64,000 nt of DNA. Origin: Bacteroidota bacterium. Lineage in GTDB: Bacteria; Bacteroidota; Bacteroidia; 2-12-FULL-35-15. Numbering within the stretch: the first letter of the stretch is position 1; every line of letters starts with the position of its first letter. Where the stretch lies: assembly GCA_029237775.1 (NCBI GenBank), contig JAQZBR010000001.1:372001-436000 (forward strand), written 5' to 3'. Below, piece after piece: positions 18,475 to 27,964 of this stretch. The position numbers were made by a program, and so were the translations under genes. The notes under the pieces were generated by a model. It was not told the origin of the DNA. It ran no database searches and saw only the letters and a list, made by a program, of their open reading frames with translations.

Positions 18475-19563
18475 TTATTCGTGGAAGTTCATTACATCAT
18501 GTCCGCCATCCAATAAGTATTTATCTTTTTCAAACAACTTAACGTCATGGGCCATCATTTCCTTCACTAATTGCTCAAGCGTGTGTTTTGGTGCCCATCC
18601 CATATTTGCCTTGGCTTTTGAAGAATCGCCAATCAAAAGGTCGACTTCGGTAGGACGGAAATATGCAGGATCCACTTCCACAAGAACTTTACCTGTTGCA
18701 GCATCAATGCCTTTTTCATCCACTCCTTTACCTTCCCATTTCAAGGTAATATTAACTTCCGCGAAAGCAAGGTCCACAAATTTTCTAACGGTTATTTTTT
18801 TTCCGGTTGCAAGCACGTAATCATCAGCCTCTTTTTGCTGAAGCATCATCCACATACCTTCAACGTAATCTTTTGCGTGGCCCCAATCGCGTTCTGCGTC
18901 AAGGTTACCTAAAAACAGCTTATCCTGAAGCTTAAGGTGAATCTTAGCGGCTGCACGGGTTATTTTTCGTGTAACAAAGGTTTCACCGCGCAGGGGGCTC
19001 TCGTGATTAAAAAGAATACCATTACAAGCATACATTCCGTAAGCTTCGCGATAGTTCTTTGTGATCCAGAACCCGTATACCTTGGCTACGCCATAAGGTG
19101 AACGGGGATAAAATGGTGTTGTTTCTTTCTGAGGAACTTCCTGAACAAAACCATACATTTCGGAAGTAGAAGCCTGATAAAAGCGGGTTTTTGTTTCCAT
19201 TTTCAGGATTCGGATAGCTTCAAGAATTCTTAAAGTTCCTATTCCGTCAGCATTTGCAGTATATTCAGGGGTTTCGAAAGACACCTTAACGTGTGATTGA
19301 GCAGCAAGATTATAGATCTCATCGGGCTGTGTTTCCTGTATAATTCTTATAAGATTCGTTGAATCTGTCAAATCGCCATAATGAAGGAAAAACTTAACCT
19401 GCTTTTCATGCTGATCTTTGTATAGGTGATCTATCCTGTCGGTATTGAATAATGAACTTCTTCTTTTAACACCATGAACAATATAACCCTTGCTTAACAG
19501 CAATTCGGCAAGATATGCTCCATCCTGACCTGTTATCCCTGTAATTAATGCTACTTTACTCAT
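18475..19563 (-). CDS. gmd: GDP-mannose 4,6-dehydratase
   Basis: Makes GDP-4-keto-6-deoxymannose from GDP-mannose, the first step to GDP-fucose. The SDR motif [15 protein letters not shown] and catalytic [12 protein letters not shown] are clear; the substrate loop has [20 protein letters not shown]. Start MSKVALITG at 19563 (362 residues); the open frame extends 8 codons further but without similarity. It is the first gene of the six-gene operon running to 11080 with gaps of 4, 14, 30, -8 and -4 bases. Confidence 0.97.
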
Positions 19564-19615: not shown

Positions 19616-19656
19616 AAAAAACCCCGCTCCGTATATCGGAGCGGGGTTTTCTTCAA
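19616..19656 (-). terminator. Terminator of T9SS cargo gene 1
   Basis: A 14-bp stem, AAAACCCCGCTCCG (19618-19631) and its complement (19637-19650), with loop tatat. It follows the stop of the 1009-residue protein in minus orientation and is flanked by A/T runs on both sides, so it may also work in the plus direction. The same hairpin is repeated at 22807-22839. Confidence 0.88.
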
Positions 19657-19896
19657 AAGGACTTTTACTTATTTAGTGATGTTGATCTTCTTAGTGATCT
19701 GACCTTTCTCAGTTGTTACTTTCACGAAGTAAACACCAGCTTCTAAACCTGTAAGGTCAAGAGAGTTGATCTGAGTGTTAAATGATTTATCACTAACCTG
19801 TGCACCTAAAACATTGTAAACTTCAACTGTAGAAGTTACATTGTGACCTAAGTTCAAAGTGAACATACCGTTAGATGGGTTAGGATACACACTGAT
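19616..19896 (-). repeat. Duplicated sorting domain plus terminator cassette, copy 1
   Basis: About 280 bp covering terminator, stop codon and the last ~75 codons are nearly identical to 22806-23084; by eye I count about ten differences and one single-base gap. The encoded peptides differ at only two residues (VLGAQVSD against VIGAQVSA). Confidence 0.85.
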
Positions 19897-22698
19897 AGAA
19901 TTAGCAATGTTTTTCTCAATACCTGTACAGATACTTACTACAATACTTACGGTGCTGCTTGCTGAGCAAGTTCCCGCGGTAGTATATGTAACAGAAGTAG
20001 TACCAGCGCCTGCAGCAGCCGGATCAAAAGTTCCAGCTGACGCATTTGTAATACCTGATCCGGTCCATGTCCCACCTGCAGTTGCTGCAGTTAAAGTCAT
20101 TGGTGCATCCTCGAAGCAAACCATTGCCGGAGCAGTGATGGCAGCATCTTCAGTAGCATTTACAACTATAGTTTCTGTATCCATGTCAGGACACACGCCC
20201 ATTGTAGTGTAAGTAACAGTGTGAGTTCCAACTCCTGAAACAGAAGGGTCGAAAGTTCCGGTAGCGTTTACTCCGGTTCCTGTCCATGTTCCGCCAGTTG
20301 TTACAGCTGATAATGTAAATGAAGAAGCTGATTCACACACAGGTGATGTTGCAGTGATTGTTGCATCATCATCAGCATTAACAATCACAATTTCCATGTC
20401 CGAATCAGGACATACACCTGCAGAAGTATAAGTCACTGTATGTGACCCTGCACCTGAAACAGAAGGATCGAAAGTTCCGGTAGCAGTTACTCCGGTCCCT
20501 GTCCATGTTCCGCCAGTTGTTGCAGCTGATAATGTAAACGAAGAAGCTGATTCACAAACAGGTGATGTAGCAGTGATTGTTGCATCATCCATTGCATTCA
20601 CTGTTATAATTAAATCGTCTGTGTTAGAGCAAGCTCCTGAAGTTGCATAAGTGATAGTAAAAGAACCTACACCTGAAACTGTCGGATCAAAAGATCCCGA
20701 TGCAGAAACACCGGTACCTGTCCATGTTCCACCCGCGGTTGGTGCTGTTAATGTTACAGCAGATGAACCCTCACAAACAGTTGACGGTCCTGTGACCGTA
20801 ACATCATCACTTAATGTAACGATGATGCTTGCATTGTCTGTATCAGGACAAACTCCGTTTGTAGTATATGTAACAACTGAAGTTCCTACACCAGCTACAG
20901 AAGGGTCAAAGACACCACTTGCAGAAACACCTGTTCCTGACCATGTTCCACCAGTAGTCGGAGCAGTAAGAGTAACCGGAGCAGCTGCAGAACAAACTGA
21001 TGCAGGAGCTGTGATAGTTGCATCATCATTAGCCGTTACGGAAACAGTTACAGGCTCAATGTCATTACAGCTTGCGTTATCGGCTTTGATATAATAAGTT
21101 CCGCTTGCGGTCACTGCTGAAGGAGTAGCCAATGCAACAGTTGCAGCAGCATCAGTCCAATAAGTAAGAGTCCCGCCACCAGTACTTCCTGCTGTGATAG
21201 CAGAAGCAGTAAGGTCTGCACTTCCACAAGCAGCAGCAGGGTTTGTAATCATTAAAACAGGTGTTGTTGATACAATAATGGTTGCCATGTCTGTATCAGG
21301 ACAAGTTCCGGAAGTTGTATATGTAATTGTGTGAGTTCCGGAACCAGCTGCCGCAGGGTCAAATGAACCAGAAGCAGAAACTCCTGTTCCTGACCATGTT
21401 CCGCCCGCTGTTGGAGCAGTTAACATGAATGCTGAAGATGCAGAACAAGCAGCTGAAGGCGCTGTAATTGTCGCATCATCATTTGGAGTAACAGAAACGC
21501 TCACTGATGCAACGGTTTGACATGCACCGTTAACTGCTTTAATGTAATATGTTCCGCTAACTGTCACAGCAGCAGGAGTCGATAAAGACATTGTAGCCGC
21601 AGCATCAGTCCAGTATGATAAAGTACCTGTATTTGTACTGCCGGCTGTTACAGCAGCAGCAGTGATATCTGCGCTTCCGCAAGCAGGAGCAGGATTTGTT
21701 ACCGTCAGCACAGGCATTGCACTTACTACAATTGAAGTTGCTTTGGTATCCGTACATGAATTCCAAAAACCAGCCAATGTATATAAAGTGGCAGTATAAG
21801 TTCCCGCTGCAGGATACGTATAAGAAGCATTCTGGCTCCAGATAATTGGAGAAGCATTCCCCATATCCCATGCATAAGTTGAATCTGCAACCGCTGCAGT
21901 TCCAAAATAATCAGTATACACATTGTAGTTGTACATCCGGCTCGATAAAGTGTTTGCTGGAGACGTAGTGTTTGTAAAAGTCATCGGGGTGCCAATACAA
22001 ACATTGCTTGCAGGACTTACAGTGTAATCTGTTGCGATAGCATAAGTGACAATCGGACTAATATCCGAATCGAAATCCTTATTCCATCCGTTAGTTGCAT
22101 CAGCGTTTGCAAACCATGCGTTACCCGCTCCCGGATCCCATAAGTTATAACCTAAACCTTCACCACCAGTACCTGTTCCTCTGTTATTGGATACAAAATC
22201 AATTCGTGCCGTACCATTCGCTTTAACAGCGACAGCGTAATTACCGGTGATGGTATGAGGCGTTGGGAAATTTGCACTATAGTATTTCACTGTTGTAGTT
22301 GACACTGTAACTGTTGCAGAATCAAGTGGTGTTACCGGCATAAATGCCGCATCCACACTGTAAAGGTATACTTTAGCCTGAGTTGCAGCACCCGAGTTAC
22401 TCCTCGCACGGAAATTCACACCTATAACATTGACTGTTCCCGGGGAAATGAATGCCTGAGATTCAGCTTCCCCTGCAAAAAGGCCGCGGGCAAAAAATTG
22501 AGGCGTAGCATTAAATGTGTATTCTTTCAGAAGCCCGTAACGCAATGTATCTGCGTTACATGTCATGTTTCTTTCTCCCGAGGCAGTCGGCCGGGTAATA
22601 GACGCATCATTGAGTAACATTGCCGGAGCCTTGCCATTCTGAGCGAATACGGCCAATCCGGAAATGAATAATGATGTTAATAGTAATGTTTTTTTCAT
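19669..22698 (-). CDS. Large T9SS-secreted repeat protein
   Basis: A 1009-residue cargo of the type IX secretion system. Signal peptide residues 1-20 (ending AVFAQ); a beta-rich N-terminal region to ~225; a PKD-like domain ~225-325 (STYAWDMGNASP, SYTYPAAGTYTATL); two Ig-like units of one kind (AACGSADLTASAITAG type); six Ig-like units of another kind (about 73 residues, GGTWTGTGVSASGSFDP core) to ~925; and a C-terminal sorting domain (~935-1009, starting ISVYPNPSNGMF and ending ITKKINITK). Two neighbouring 219-bp units (20240 and 20459) are almost identical at DNA level, so repeat number is probably unstable. An adhesin or surface-coat role is plausible but unproven. Catalytic residues are not seen. 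Confidence 0.88.
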   Translation of the reverse strand: MKKTLLLTSLFISGLAVFAQNGKAPAMLLNDASITRPTASGERNMTCNADTLRYGLLKEYTFNATPQFFARGLFAGEAESQAFISPGTVNVIGVNFRARSNSGAATQAKVYLYSVDAAFMPVTPLDSATVTVSTTTVKYYSANFPTPHTITGNYAVAVKANGTARIDFVSNNRGTGTGGEGLGYNLWDPGAGNAWFANADATNGWNKDFDSDISPIVTYAIATDYTVSPASNVCIGTPMTFTNTTSPANTLSSRMYNYNVYTDYFGTAAVADSTYAWDMGNASPIIWSQNASYTYPAAGTYTATLYTLAGFWNSCTDTKATSIVVSAMPVLTVTNPAPACGSADITAAAVTAGSTNTGTLSYWTDAAATMSLSTPAAVTVSGTYYIKAVNGACQTVASVSVSVTPNDDATITAPSAACSASSAFMLTAPTAGGTWSGTGVSASGSFDPAAAGSGTHTITYTTSGTCPDTDMATIIVSTTPVLMITNPAAACGSADLTASAITAGSTGGGTLTYWTDAAATVALATPSAVTASGTYYIKADNASCNDIEPVTVSVTANDDATITAPASVCSAAAPVTLTAPTTGGTWSGTGVSASGVFDPSVAGVGTSVVTYTTNGVCPDTDNASIIVTLSDDVTVTGPSTVCEGSSAVTLTAPTAGGTWTGTGVSASGSFDPTVSGVGSFTITYATSGACSNTDDLIITVNAMDDATITATSPVCESASSFTLSAATTGGTWTGTGVTATGTFDPSVSGAGSHTVTYTSAGVCPDSDMEIVIVNADDDATITATSPVCESASSFTLSAVTTGGTWTGTGVNATGTFDPSVSGVGTHTVTYTTMGVCPDMDTETIVVNATEDAAITAPAMVCFEDAPMTLTAATAGGTWTGSGITNASAGTFDPAAAGAGTTSVTYTTAGTCSASSTVSIVVSICTGIEKNIANSISVYPNPSNGMFTLNLGHNVTSTVEVYNVLGAQVSDKSFNTQINSLDLTGLEAGVYFVKVTTEKGQITKKINITK
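20240..20676 (-). repeat. Adjacent near-identical 219-bp coding repeats
   Basis: The segment acagaagggtcgaaag at 20240 recurs as acagaaggatcgaaag at 20459, a period of 219 bp (73 codons), with few differences across the unit. Less similar units continue on both sides of the same gene. Confidence 0.75.
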
Positions 22699-22724
22699 GT
22701 TTTAATGTTTAGTTTATTAAGGCG

Positions 22725-22732
22725 CAAAATTA
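22725..22732 (-). promoter_or_regulatory. -7 box TAATTTTG for T9SS cargo gene 1
   Basis: Minus-strand TAATTTTG, a TAnnTTTG match, lies 27 bases before the ATG at 22698. No -33 box at the right spacing. Confidence 0.4.
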
Positions 22733-22805
22733 CGGATTCATTCAGGAATAAAGGACCGGATACTAAAGTGTTTATTAACATTTAAAGAGTCGTGAGCATA
22801 AAAAG

Positions 22806-22846
22806 AAAAACCCCGCTCCGTATATCGGAGCGGGGTTTTCTTCAAA
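22806..22846 (-). terminator. Terminator of T9SS cargo gene 2
   Basis: The same 14-bp stem as at 19618-19650: AAAACCCCGCTCCG (22807-22820), loop tatat, complement 22826-22839. It closes the 602-residue cargo gene. Confidence 0.88.
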
Positions 22847-23084
22847 GGACTTTTACTTATTTAGTGATGTTGATCTTTTTAGTGATCTGACCTTTCTCAG
22901 TTGTTACTTTCACGAAGTAAACACCAGCTTCTAAACCTGTAAGGTCAAGAGAGTTGATCTGAGTGTTAAATGATTTAGCACTAACCTGAGCACCGATTAC
23001 ATTATAAACTTCAACTGTAGAAGTTACATTGTGACCTAAGTTCAAAGTGAACATACCGTTAGATGGGTTAGGATAAACGCTGAT
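22806..23084 (-). repeat. Duplicated sorting domain plus terminator cassette, copy 2
   Basis: Second copy of the 280-bp cassette described at 19616-19896. The homology stops sharply at the sorting-domain boundary; upstream parts of the two genes are unrelated. Confidence 0.85.
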
Positions 23085-24665
23085 CTCATCAGAAGAAACG
23101 TTCGAAGCAATTCCGTTAGAACCAAATTGTAATTCCATACCAACCAAAGGAACATTTCCTGTTACAGAAGCCCACTGGAAAGCACCAGCAGCCGGCTGAA
23201 CATAAACAGCACCAGCAACACCAGCATCACCAGGGAAAGCATTATCAGAAACAACTGAAATTGTATCAGTTCCCGGAGTAATGTTTAACTGGATGCTTGC
23301 AACAAGTAATGTACCTGCAGCTGCATTGTAAGGAGTTATCAAAGCTAAAGTTGTAAAGTTAAGAGCACTGTTTGTTCCCATTGCCGGAGTGAAAGGAGCT
23401 GTTTGAGCAACAGGCACAAAGTTTCCGGTCATAAGGTCGATCATGTATAATTTACCTACAACGCTTCCGCCACCGCTTGTTCTGTAAAGAACAGTTGTGA
23501 TTGAATCAACACGCCCTGCATTTGGCATGATGTAAGTTGCACCGTATTCCATACCTGTAACCGCTGGAGCAGCTGTACCAAAACTGTAAGAAGACAATGT
23601 TGTCATTGCATTTAAAGTACGGTAGTAGCTATAATCAGTTCCGTAGAAGAAAACAGAATCAGCCATATTATTTGCAGGAACATCATCAGTTTCTGTCTGA
23701 TCAACCATTAAAGCTGTTTCGTAAGCAACGAAACCAGTTCCTCCTGTTGGAGCAACATTAGTCCATAATGTATCAAAAGAACCTGCAGCCATAGAAGGTG
23801 TAGGATTGTTAACCCCTGTAGATCCAACGAAAGTTCCGTTGTTTACGTCAGCCGTCAAAGTAACATTTGTCTGAGCGTTTGAGCCTACATTAGAAGTGAT
23901 AACTCCGAACTCTGCAGCAACAAGCTGATCGTTAGGGATAAACTGGAAATAATCAAATCCATTGATGTTCACCATTGGAGAAGGATTAACAGCGATATCG
24001 TTTGCAGAAGTTACAATTGTAGGTCCGGTTACGTTATCAACACCAATATTTGACCAACCATAATCAGATACTGCTCTGAAACGAGCCTGAACGTTCATAC
24101 CATTGTATGCCGCTAAGCTTGCAGTTTGTGTGACCCAACCTGAATTAGTAGTTGTGTTGTAGTTTGGCAAACCTGCTAACACATTTGTAGTGCTTGTTGT
24201 CCATGTTGTACCACCATCGGTAGAGTATTCGATGAACATTTTCGCACCAGTTCCCTGATAAGCAGGATTTGTTGACAGATTGTACAAATTCACGCTGTAG
24301 CTTAAAGTATTGCTTCCAGAAGTTGGTTGCATTACAGGAGTAACCAAATACCCCATAACTCCAGGATTTTCGTTAAATGCATCAAAGAATGCAAAGTGTC
24401 CTGTATTACCAACTGCAGCTGGCTCTTCATAAACATCAGCAGTGCTTGGCAACCAGTCACCCGACCAACCTGTTGGAGGAACTCCAAGTTCAAACATTTC
24501 GTTTAATGTAGCCTGAACACCTCTAACCGAAGGGGAAGTAGATGTTTGAGCTTTTGCACCATACGCTGCGAATTGAGCCGGCTTATCAGCTGTCTTCGTC
24601 AGATTCTGCGCATTAAGGCTGCCAACAGCCATAACCGCGATCAAAGGCAAGTAAATTTTTCTCAT
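22857..24665 (-). CDS. T9SS-secreted protein with choice-of-anchor J-like domain
   Basis: A 602-residue cargo protein. Signal peptide residues 1-19 (ending SLNAQ). Residues ~50-210 have the jelly-roll pattern of cleaved-adhesin/choice-of-anchor J domains: GHFAFFDAFNENPG, MFIEYSTDGGTTW, and YGWSNIGVDNVTGP. The middle (~215-525) is rich in Thr, Asn and Val with a CARDB-like segment (AEFGVITSNVGSNAQTNVTL) and a second beta domain. The sorting domain begins ISVYPNPSNGMF and ends ITKKINITK, almost identical to the neighbouring cargo protein. A TATATTTG box lies upstream. Function beyond surface display or release is not visible. Confidence 0.87.
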   Translation of the reverse strand: MRKIYLPLIAVMAVGSLNAQNLTKTADKPAQFAAYGAKAQTSTSPSVRGVQATLNEMFELGVPPTGWSGDWLPSTADVYEEPAAVGNTGHFAFFDAFNENPGVMGYLVTPVMQPTSGSNTLSYSVNLYNLSTNPAYQGTGAKMFIEYSTDGGTTWTTSTTNVLAGLPNYNTTTNSGWVTQTASLAAYNGMNVQARFRAVSDYGWSNIGVDNVTGPTIVTSANDIAVNPSPMVNINGFDYFQFIPNDQLVAAEFGVITSNVGSNAQTNVTLTADVNNGTFVGSTGVNNPTPSMAAGSFDTLWTNVAPTGGTGFVAYETALMVDQTETDDVPANNMADSVFFYGTDYSYYRTLNAMTTLSSYSFGTAAPAVTGMEYGATYIMPNAGRVDSITTVLYRTSGGGSVVGKLYMIDLMTGNFVPVAQTAPFTPAMGTNSALNFTTLALITPYNAAAGTLLVASIQLNITPGTDTISVVSDNAFPGDAGVAGAVYVQPAAGAFQWASVTGNVPLVGMELQFGSNGIASNVSSDEISVYPNPSNGMFTLNLGHNVTSTVEVYNVIGAQVSAKSFNTQINSLDLTGLEAGVYFVKVTTEKGQITKKINITK

Positions 24666-24754: not shown

Positions 24755-25561
24755 TTAACTCACTATAAACCAGTTATTTAGAAGATTTTCTTTATTGTAA
24801 AGCAACCTTTTGTTGGTAGAATAGTCGGTCACGGTAACCCCTGCAATTTCACAAATTGCCTGACCTGCCGCAGTGTCCCATTCCATAGTAGGGGCAAATC
24901 GTGGATAAACATCTGCACTGCCTTCCGCTACCAAGCATAATTTAATTGAACTGCCGGATGATCTAAACTCAATATCCTTATGTTTCGTCCTTAAGCCATC
25001 TATAAACATTTCCGTTTCTTCCGAAAGATGAGAACGGCTTGCCACGACAACAAATTTATCATGCTCCTTTACCAATGGAAGTTTCACTGATTGATTAATT
25101 ATCCCTTCAAGATCTTCTGCAAGGGCATCATTTATTTCCAATTTAAAGCTTCCAACACCTTCCGCAGCAAAATAAAGAACCTTTGTAACAGGCACATAGA
25201 CTACACCTAGAACCGCGCGTTGCTGAGTGATAAGTGCGATGTTCACAGTGAACTCACCATTCCTTTTTATAAACTCCTTTGTCCCATCCAGTGGGTCAAC
25301 CATCCAGAAATATTCCCATTTACTCCGTTCCGAATATTCAATATTCTTTCCTTCTTCACTAAGGACATGAAGATCACTATCTTTTAGGATCTCTGATATT
25401 GCAATGTGAGCCTTTTTGTCTGCGAGAGTTAAAGGAGATTTATCATCTTTATGCTCCACGGCAAAGTCCGAGTCATACACGCTGAGAATTTCATCCCCTG
25501 CTTTTAAAGAAGCCCGGATCGCCATCTGCAACCAGCCTTTCATATTTTGTTTATTCTCCAT
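24755..25561 (-). CDS. cysQ: 3'(2'),5'-bisphosphate nucleotidase CysQ
   Basis: Removes the 3'-phosphate from PAP (and PAPS), clearing the by-product of sulfotransfer or PAPS reduction. It is an inositol-monophosphatase fold with metal motif SEEGKNIEY (residues ~68-76), DPLDGTKEFIKRNGEF (~93-108) and the C-terminal metal site WDTAAGQAICEIAG. Length 268 is typical. It is the last gene of the minus-strand run that begins with deoC, 9 bases after the ALDH-like fragment gene, and lies about 3.6 kb from cysCDN, which make PAPS. Confidence 0.93.
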   Translation of the reverse strand: MENKQNMKGWLQMAIRASLKAGDEILSVYDSDFAVEHKDDKSPLTLADKKAHIAISEILKDSDLHVLSEEGKNIEYSERSKWEYFWMVDPLDGTKEFIKRNGEFTVNIALITQQRAVLGVVYVPVTKVLYFAAEGVGSFKLEINDALAEDLEGIINQSVKLPLVKEHDKFVVVASRSHLSEETEMFIDGLRTKHKDIEFRSSGSSIKLCLVAEGSADVYPRFAPTMEWDTAAGQAICEIAGVTVTDYSTNKRLLYNKENLLNNWFIVS

Positions 25562-25570
25562 AAATTAAAC

Positions 25571-26452
25571 TTAATATCCTGCCTTCGCGGATCCGATATT
25601 TTCAATTGGATGCCATGTGGTTTTTATTTCCTGAAGGTCAGTTATGTAATAAGGATTCGCGTGATCTTCTGAAAATATATTTTCTTTATACACGAAAACG
25701 CGCTTGACATTTAAAGCGGCATTTTCCTTTATTGTTTTAATCTGAGCTTTATCATCCCTGTAATAAACCATTGCATTCACATCCATATGAGATGAAAAAT
25801 GTGTATGAAGCTCCTGTGCACTTCCTGTTATAATATTTACAACACCACCGGGAAGATCTGAAGTGTTCAGCACTTCGGAAAAAGTAACGGCACATAAGGG
25901 TTTTGATTCTGAAGCCAGAACTACACAAGTGTTGCCGCCTGCAATTATAGGTGCTATGGCTGTAACTAATCCCAGCAGAGAAGATTTCTCATCTGCAATG
26001 ACAGCCACTACGCCCGTAGGTTCAGGAACGGAGAAATTAAAATGAGAGGAGGCAACCGGATTAACAGCGCTGAAAACCTGTTGGAATTTATCACACCAGC
26101 CGGAATAATACACCATGCGGTCAATTGCCATTTCCACTTCTACTCTTGCAGCTGCTGATGATGAGCCCTGAACAATGAGTTCTGAAATAAACTGATCTTT
26201 TCTTCCTTCAAGGATCTCAGCAACACGATAAAGGATCTGCGCCCTGTTAAAAGCAGCTCTGCTGCTCCAACCTGATTGAGCGCTCCTTGCAGCAACTTCC
26301 GCATTACGGAAATCCTTTCGGGAGCTCTGACAGATATTAGCTAACACTTCACCTTTTTTGTTTTTTAGAGAGTAGTATCTCCCCGACTCTGTTCTAGGAA
26401 ACTGACCTCCAATGAAGATCTTATATGTTTTCTGTATTTCTAATCTTTCCAT
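25571..26452 (-). CDS. Catalytically incomplete aldehyde dehydrogenase-like protein
   Basis: A 293-residue protein similar only to the N-terminal NAD-binding half of aldehyde dehydrogenases: YKIFIGGQFPRTESGRYYSL, then AQSGWSSRAAFNRAQILYRV and GNTCVVLASESKPLCAVTFSE with GGVVNIITGS. The catalytic Cys region and the ELGGK glutamate are absent, and the usual PWNFP is replaced by VIADEKSS. It ends at residue 293 with a normal stop; I see no frameshift, so it is not an obvious broken gene. It follows the complete ALDH by 45 bases. The pair resembles the active-plus-inactive arrangement of ALDH16 proteins, suggesting a partner subunit. Confidence 0.8.
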   Translation of the reverse strand: MERLEIQKTYKIFIGGQFPRTESGRYYSLKNKKGEVLANICQSSRKDFRNAEVAARSAQSGWSSRAAFNRAQILYRVAEILEGRKDQFISELIVQGSSSAAARVEVEMAIDRMVYYSGWCDKFQQVFSAVNPVASSHFNFSVPEPTGVVAVIADEKSSLLGLVTAIAPIIAGGNTCVVLASESKPLCAVTFSEVLNTSDLPGGVVNIITGSAQELHTHFSSHMDVNAMVYYRDDKAQIKTIKENAALNVKRVFVYKENIFSEDHANPYYITDLQEIKTTWHPIENIGSAKAGY

Positions 26453-26462
26453 TACTTTATTT

Positions 26463-26489
26463 TTTTACCGCGAAGGCACTAAGACAATA
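26463..26489. repeat. Degenerate 'accgcgaaggcac' repeat, copy 2
   Basis: The run ttaccgcgaaggcactaaga in the gap between the two ALDH-type genes resembles the repeats at 2735-2775 and 55435-55470. It is too degenerate to define boundaries. Confidence 0.4.
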
Positions 26490-26497
26490 AAAGTTTT

Positions 26498-27964
26498 TTA
26501 TATGTTCAAATACGCTGCTAATCCATGCAATCCGCCTTCTCTGCCGAAACCGCTTTCTTTAAAGCCACCGAAAGGTGAAACAGGGTCAAATTTATTATAC
26601 GTGTTAGCCCATACCACACCTGCCTTTAATTTGGTGGTCAGATTAAATATCTTAGAGCCTTTATCTGTCCAGACTCCTGCGGACAAACCATATGGAATAT
26701 TGTTCGCCTTTTCGATGACTTCTTCAATGGTCCTGAATGTCTGCACTGCTAACACCGGCCCGAAGATCTCTTCCTGAACAATACGGTGCGACTGAGATGC
26801 ATTTAAGAAGATAGTCGGTTTGCAGAAAAATCCTTTTTTAGGAATATTACAAGAACTCTGATAGATCTCTGCCCCTTCATTCTTACCTATGGTAATATAT
26901 TCATTGATCTTTGTAAGCTGTTCTTTCGAATTGATCGCTCCCACATCCGTATTTTTATCCATCGGATCACCGATACGAAGTGTCTCCATTCTGTCTTTTA
27001 GTTTTCTGATAACCAGATCGGCAACACTTTCATGAACGAACAAACGAGAGCCTGCACAGCAAACATGACCCTGATTGAAGAAGATCCCATTAATTACACC
27101 TTCTACAGCCTGGTCGAGCGGTGCGTCCTCAAAAATGATATTAGCCGCCTTGCCCCCTAATTCCAGGGTAAGTTTCTTATCAGTCCCTGCAATTGCTTTT
27201 TGAATGATCTTTCCAACATCGGTTGAACCTGTGAACGCGATTTTATTTATATCAGGATGATTCACAATTGCTGCACCTGTCTTCCCGGCACCTGTTACAA
27301 TATTCACAACACCCTTCGGTAATCCGCTGTCTCGGATCAGCTCTGCAAGCTTCAAAGCTGTTAATGGAGTGGTTTCCGCAGGTTTCAGAACAACAGTATT
27401 ACCTGCAGCTAAAGCGGGGGCAATTTTCCATGCGGCCATCAGCAGCGGGAAATTCCATGGAATGATCTGTCCGGCAACCCCAAGCGGCTTGGGTTTACGG
27501 TTTGGAAAAGCATACTCAAGCTTATCTGCCCAGCCCGCATAATAAAAGAAATGATTTGCTGCCAATGGAACATCAATATCCCTGCTTTCACGAATGGGTT
27601 TACCCCCGTCCATGGTTTCTATCACGGCAAATTCCCGCGCTCTTTCCTGCATTAACCTTGCAATACGATAGATATACTTTCCCCTTTCTTTGCCCGAAAG
27701 CTTGCTCCACTTACCAAATGCAGCCCGAGCAGCCTTAACTGCTTTGTCTACATCTTTTTCATTCGCTTCAGCAACATCCGCGATCTTCACTTCGGTAGCA
27801 GGATTATAAGTGGCAAAATATTTTTTGCTCTCAGGCTTCACGAATTCTCCATTGATGAATAAATCATATTGTGATTTAATAGAAATGTGTGAAGTGTCTT
27901 CCGGTGCCGGTGCCAGTTCCCAGGCAGCATTGAAGTTTAGTTTTATTTCCTTGGTTGTGCTCAT
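26498..27964 (-). CDS. NAD(P)-dependent aldehyde dehydrogenase
   Basis: A complete 488-residue ALDH. The oxyanion-hole IIPWNFPLLMAAW is at ~167-179, the cofactor-binding FTGSTDVG at ~244-251, the general-base Glu in LELGGKAANI (268) and the catalytic Cys in GHVCCAGSR (302/303). C-terminal signature VSPFGGFKESGFGREGG is intact. It lies 81 bases after deoC, whose aldolase releases acetaldehyde from deoxyribose-5-phosphate, so oxidation of acetaldehyde is the likely job; the substrate is inferred from context only. It is followed by the inactive-looking paralogue. Confidence 0.92.
   Translation of the reverse strand: MSTTKEIKLNFNAAWELAPAPEDTSHISIKSQYDLFINGEFVKPESKKYFATYNPATEVKIADVAEANEKDVDKAVKAARAAFGKWSKLSGKERGKYIYRIARLMQERAREFAVIETMDGGKPIRESRDIDVPLAANHFFYYAGWADKLEYAFPNRKPKPLGVAGQIIPWNFPLLMAAWKIAPALAAGNTVVLKPAETTPLTALKLAELIRDSGLPKGVVNIVTGAGKTGAAIVNHPDINKIAFTGSTDVGKIIQKAIAGTDKKLTLELGGKAANIIFEDAPLDQAVEGVINGIFFNQGHVCCAGSRLFVHESVADLVIRKLKDRMETLRIGDPMDKNTDVGAINSKEQLTKINEYITIGKNEGAEIYQSSCNIPKKGFFCKPTIFLNASQSHRIVQEEIFGPVLAVQTFRTIEEVIEKANNIPYGLSAGVWTDKGSKIFNLTTKLKAGVVWANTYNKFDPVSPFGGFKESGFGREGGLHGLAAYLNI

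Follow-up and report, generated by a model that had tools for sequence, protein, structure and literature searches.

Organisation of the locus

On the minus strand of the window, the whole stretch of 64,000 nucleotides that was analysed, two adjacent genes for T9SS cargo proteins lie between a cysQ-like gene and gmd, in the 5' to 3' order cysQ, B, A, gmd (Table 1). Both products end in a type A C-terminal sorting domain (CTD), with scores against PF18962 (Por_Secre_tail) and TIGR04183 of 58.1 and 56.4 bits for A and of 59.2 and 54.7 bits for B, above the cut-offs of 27 and 23. Each N-terminus, judged by eye, has a hydrophobic start followed by AQN (Q-rule-like) and is signal-peptide-like. Promoters of Bacteroidota follow a TAnnTTTG-like consensus, and two elements matched to it by eye, TATATTTG at 24714-24707 ahead of B and TAATTTTG ahead of A, are presumed to be promoter elements. 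Each gene thus seems to have a promoter of its own, in which case promoter, body, CTD and terminator would form a self-contained unit. The adjacency of A and B is that found in one assembly.

Within A, an array of ~219-nt (73-aa) repeats occupies 20132-21460 of the minus strand, the best pair of repeats being 81% identical as DNA. Given that the A cargo is 1009 aa long here and about 495-651 aa long in relatives, this lineage seems to have expanded the array.

Table 1. Features of the cysQ-gmd region and their positions in the window (the slot is the position upstream of gmd).
Feature	Position	Strand	Remark
cysQ-like 3'(2'),5'-bisphosphate nucleotidase	24755-25561	minus	upstream border of slot
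Gene B	22857-24665	minus	T9SS cargo, 602 aa; choice-of-anchor J domain, aa 54-213
Type A CTD, gene B	22860-23084	minus	profile matches to PF18962, TIGR04183
Cassette copy 2 (gene B): final 75 codons, stop and terminator	22806-23084	minus	read as acquired (recipient) copy
Intrinsic terminator after B (copy)	22806-22840	minus	fold -29.1 kcal/mol, z -6.0; also in terminator scan
B-A spacer past cassette	22699-22805	minus	contains TAnnTTTG-like element TAATTTTG at 22732-22725
Gene A	19669-22698	minus	T9SS cargo, 1009 aa; ~73-aa repeat array ahead of CTD
Type A CTD, gene A	19672-19896	minus	profile matches to PF18962, TIGR04183
Cassette copy 1 (gene A): final 75 codons, stop and terminator	19617-19896	minus	read as native (donor) copy
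Intrinsic terminator after A	19617-19651	minus	fold -28.7 kcal/mol, z -6.4
gmd (GDP-mannose 4,6-dehydratase)	18478-19563	minus	conserved downstream border of slot

A CTD and terminator shared by two unrelated genes

Local alignment of the 3' ends of A and B returned a single block, coextensive with the two cassette copies of Table 1, which is 280 columns long and 96.4% identical, the differences being 9 substitutions and one 1-bp indel. The 5' edge of the block is codon 75 before the stop (ISVYPNPSNG...), which is the start of the Por_Secre_tail domain, and the 3' edge falls within the T-run of the terminator. There is no similarity 5' of the block, where 14 of the 14 codons directly upstream differ between the genes, and comparison of the body profiles with hhalign gave a match confined to the first 23 aa, the signal-peptide region. 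Eight codons have changed between the two CTDs, six of them synonymously and two with replacement of a residue (L/I, D/A), and the terminator hairpin does not differ between the copies (~-29 kcal/mol, z about -6). A high-identity block with sharp edges in otherwise unrelated sequence is the mark of a gene-conversion tract, and the comparison shows one of the two tags to be a copy of the other with well-defined edges. The sequence-only reading of this region had described near-identical final ~75 codons and terminators in adjacent unrelated genes, with similarity stopping at the domain edge, and was right on both points.

A search of the genome with the A tag as query gave 145 CTD hits, corresponding to 144 distinct ORFs, whose 3' ends were compared all-against-all as DNA (10,296 pairs). 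A and B are the sole near-identical CTD pair on unrelated bodies among the 144. The next best CTD in the genome is 41% identical to the A tag as protein, and the DNA search for further copies of the cassette that the sequence-only reading had called for found the copies of A and B only. Six other CTD pairs were prominent by bit score, five to six of them being paralogous over the whole gene and of various ages, and one consisting of two hits to the same ORF. Weaker DNA matches between unrelated genes do occur, for example 71% over 103 bases between C11_600901 and C3_215694. A general homogenisation of CTDs can be rejected, as strong DNA similarity is otherwise confined to whole-gene paralogues and to a double hit within one ORF; CTDs of this genome differ at the DNA level, and are not all as alike as those of A and B. 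A portable cassette in many copies is likewise rejected, given the two copies in the genome and none in plasmid or phage collections. Signs of a mobile element were looked for in the form of a third genomic copy, matches in the plasmid and phage collections and a nearby tRNA, and none was seen. Of the 'portable unit' of tag and terminator proposed earlier, the local copying of such a unit therefore stands, but not its spread through the genome or by plasmid or phage.

One pair that appeared to be 100% identical, C11_225216 and C11_226878, was discarded because it is one ORF with two CTD hits; this 720-aa ORF (G000:C11:225216-227123, L174) has one of its hits in an internal position. Two paralogous cargo genes on different contigs, G000:C3:215694 and G000:C7:2933 (L122 and L048), contain internal repeats and are 78-84% identical as DNA to the gene end.

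Occupants of the slot in relatives

In the comparison set of 35 congeners, the slot is often occupied by one cargo gene. This is an A-type cargo in nine relatives (G032, G009, G033, G006, G003, G025, G007, G035 and G031), a B-type cargo in G015 and G024, a cargo designated X in G008 and G030, a cargo Y in G014 and G026 and a cargo C in G028. G010 and G023 showed no cargo in the cysQ-gmd interval, and in the remaining congeners gmd has unrelated neighbours. The slot is host to at least four unrelated bodies, and when set against the 35 congeners only the genome of the window has two cargoes (B and A) in it. Homologues of the A body were found in 12 of the 35 at E <= 1e-40, a search in which the body was absent from G008 and G030, and orthologues of the B body in G015 and G024 only. 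The A-type gene of G035 (L102:1546-3026) is split in two ORFs, which may reflect gene breakage or an error of assembly.

The A-type cargoes bear CTDs of the A lineage, and those of G009 and G032 are 64% identical to the CTD of A and 65-67% identical to the CTD of B in the window. The CTDs of the two B orthologues are 89% identical to each other and 35-37% identical to that of B in the window. The terminator of A resembles the G009 terminator at the same place (GGAGCGGGGTTTTTTGCTGTT.ACACGC), and the terminators of the B orthologues differ from that of B. The copy in A is read as native, on the strength of the CTD lineage that it shares with A-type cargo in nine relatives and of the matching terminator in G009; that in B is read as acquired, because neither the CTD nor the terminator of its body orthologues is of this kind. 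Elsewhere in their genomes, G015 and G024 each have a cargo of 311-313 aa bearing its genome's most A-like CTD (L212:1060-1995 and L213:3508-4449), the body of which gave no match to X.

Phylogeny and age of the copy

In trees of the CTDs, those of A and B from the window are sisters (100/98), with the A-type CTDs of G009 and G032 beside the pair (FastTree 0.98; IQ-TREE 88/95) and the CTDs of the B orthologues far from it. The phylogeny of the tract is therefore in conflict with that of the body, the CTD of B being sister to that of A while the only kin of the B body are those of G015 and G024. An AU test did not reject the grouping of the B CTD with those of its body orthologues (p 0.24 and 0.13), a weak test with ~75 columns.

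Between the two CTDs of the window, dS is 0.14 and dN is 0.0145, for a dN/dS of about 0.1, which points to continuing constraint on both tags. In gmd, synonymous sites are near-saturated in comparisons with G028, G009, G032 and G015 (pS 0.72-0.83), which places the copying long after the divergence from every relative compared. The earlier suggestion that the copy is recent is upheld by these values, and the pair is not an ancient orthologous one. At the differing codons more derived states are found in A than in B, indicating that the two copies have evolved unevenly. The codon GTT at the 5' edge of the tract in B was considered as a relic of the old B CTD and rejected, given that the A gene of G009 has GTT too.

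Direction and mechanism of the exchange

Taken together, it is very probable that B lost its own sorting domain and terminator and took a copy of those of its unrelated neighbour A, the resident module of the slot having been recombined onto a second body. Despite the AU test, the direction from A to B appears secure from the sequences for two reasons: the A CTD lineage is native to the slot and the B orthologues have another CTD and terminator, and the CTD of B is 97% identical as protein and 96% as DNA to that of A, as against 35-37% as protein to those of its body orthologues. It had also been proposed that the event illustrates a way in which new T9SS cargo arises. This is not borne out: given that the orthologues of B in G015 and G024 already belong to the T9SS cargoes and have a CTD from a different lineage, B swapped one tag for another and no new cargo was born here. 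No close relative is known in which B stands beside A without the swapped CTD, and intermediates were not seen.

The crossover would have been anchored in the conserved YPNP codons at the CTD start and in the GC-rich terminator. At the 5' edge, A and B of the window share the sequence TATCCTAACCC with A of G009 and B of G024, so that homology for a crossover exists between CTDs of different lineages, and A-type and B-type genes both terminate in a GC-rich terminator with a T-run. Two routes are conceivable: the 3' end of B may have been converted by its downstream tandem neighbour A, or an A unit may have been inserted at the CTD of a resident gene, doubling the CTD and terminator. The B body orthologues do hold a homologous CTD and terminator, as conversion would require, but insertion-duplication would give the same end product. 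The earlier wording of 'recent gene conversion or transfer' thus holds for a recent local copy of tag and terminator from A to B; as the route, insertion-duplication fits as well as conversion.

Fusion to a CTD suffices for a protein to be exported, and PorV is the shuttle for all type A CTDs (PMC12618676, PMC10202324). Given that one type A CTD can generically stand in for another as an export tag, B is predicted to be still exported by the same PorV-dependent route.

Alternative accounts

That insertion-duplication took the place of conversion is a serious possibility, if one somewhat short of an even chance. One crossover joining the CTD of a resident gene to that of an A unit, whether incoming or duplicated, would have put promoter, A, CTD and terminator behind B, which gives the exact layout cysQ-B-CTD-terminator-A-CTD-terminator-gmd. 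It is also consistent with B and A being alternative occupants of the same slot in relatives, and with the retention in the B copy of some G009 states lost in A (codons 30 and 32). However, this account needs an ancestor with B alone, or a circle or duplicate of A, none of which was seen, and one genome cannot tell it from conversion.

Two further accounts can be considered. Near-identical blocks of 280 bp are sites at which an assembler may make wrong joins, raising the possibility of an assembly or strain-mixing artefact. This is most unlikely: 10 positions distinguish the two copies, a single contig of 594,790 bp contains both, and cysQ and gmd on the outside agree with what relatives show. 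A wrong adjacency would still leave two copies in existence. It is scarcely credible that A and B are old paralogues, partial duplicates of one ancestral gene whose CTDs have been held alike by selection, as their common signal-peptide-like start and type A CTD might suggest. Selection on the protein is at odds with the conservation of synonymous sites and of the non-coding terminator as well, and a dS of 0.14 without detectable body homology contradicts an old duplication; furthermore, the bodies are unrelated, the B orthologues carry a different CTD and other CTDs of the genome reach 41% identity at most.

Possible earlier exchanges at the same slot

The copying of the resident module onto B may not be an isolated case. 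It is perhaps marginally favoured over an even chance that the locus is a cargo-exchange site at which bodies recombine onto a resident, re-used CTD and terminator, with B in the window, X in G008 and G030 and perhaps C in G028 as separate cases, that is at least twice and perhaps three times in one genus. The X CTDs of the slot score 97.5 bits (G008) and 88.7 bits (G030) with a profile of the A-slot CTDs, to which they are 36-59% identical. X orthologues at other loci in eight relatives (G001, G003, G009, G035, G011, G018, G023 and G031) carry another CTD lineage; of the eight tails, seven are complete, and these score 19-26 bits and share 19-37% identity with the X tags of the slot. When all scored CTDs of a genome are ranked with that profile, the one in the slot comes top in G008 (96.6 bits, next 68.6) and in G030 (87.8, next 60.8), leading by 27-28 bits, and the C slot CTD of G028 is also first, at 75.5 against 67.3 bits, a lead of 8 bits; the chance of each first rank is about 1 in 70-150, G008 and G030 not being independent. 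In trees the X-slot CTDs group with the A-slot CTDs (85/93), and in a reduced tree a 100/99 branch separates them from the non-slot X CTDs. The diversity of bodies found in the slot is in keeping with such exchange.

On the other side, an AU test did not reject grouping of the X CTDs by body (p 0.27-0.30; single CTDs, little power), and with so little power in the constrained trees it is the profile ranks that carry the cases of X and C. Both cases are old, with no surviving DNA tract, and the G008 genome is 76% complete. The slots of G015 and G024 (B) and of G014 and G026 (Y) bear non-A CTDs, which indicates that whole-gene replacement happens too. Nevertheless, X provides the strongest parallel, and its CTD profile suggests that the slot has probably done this before. 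Given the wide presence of A in the slot, we infer that X took the slot tag, rather than that the non-slot X genes were re-tagged. C, whose body has domain-level relatives only and whose CTD has no starred placement in the trees, is a weaker case and only perhaps a third. If recurrent exchange at the slot is true, T9SS cargo repertoires evolve through the capture of bodies at resident tags.

Relation to known systems

As T9SS type A cargoes (TIGR04183/PF18962), A and B are typical in exceeding the curated cut-offs, in their signal peptide-like N-terminus and in the basic end of the CTD, ..TKKINITK. The domain itself is ordinary, and what is unusual is that it is shared at the DNA level, together with a terminator, by two unrelated cargoes. 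In Porphyromonas gingivalis, also a T9SS bacterium, gene conversion and domain rearrangement among the gingipains and HagA similarly move domains of surface proteins between loci (PMC5266723); there, however, it is mainly adhesin and catalytic modules of related proteins that are moved, whereas here it is an export tag and terminator between unrelated bodies. Polymorphic toxin cassettes, such as the TANFOR proteins of Bacteroidota (PMC7073777), likewise combine a constant delivery part with a variable payload, but in the present case it is the C-terminus, with its CTD, that is constant and the N-terminal part that varies, and no toxin, immunity gene or silent-tip array was seen at the A/B locus. 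Gene conversion and domain shuffling are thus already known, and the exchange of a T9SS tag and terminator between unrelated cargoes is undescribed in the open-access literature searched.

T9SS genomes may hold more than 100 unrelated cargoes with one C-terminal tag type (about 144 here), and the A/B pair bears on how such proteins acquire it. It is a dated and polarised exchange of tag and terminator by two unrelated cargoes, probably with an older counterpart at this locus, and offers a testable route for re-tagging, in which recombination takes place in the conserved YPNP codons at the CTD start and in terminators. It also warns that trees of cargo CTDs and of cargo bodies need not agree.

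Upstream of cysQ, at 25571-27964 of the window, a truncated aldehyde dehydrogenase-like gene (293 aa) adjoins a full-length one, an arrangement that is kept in several relatives.
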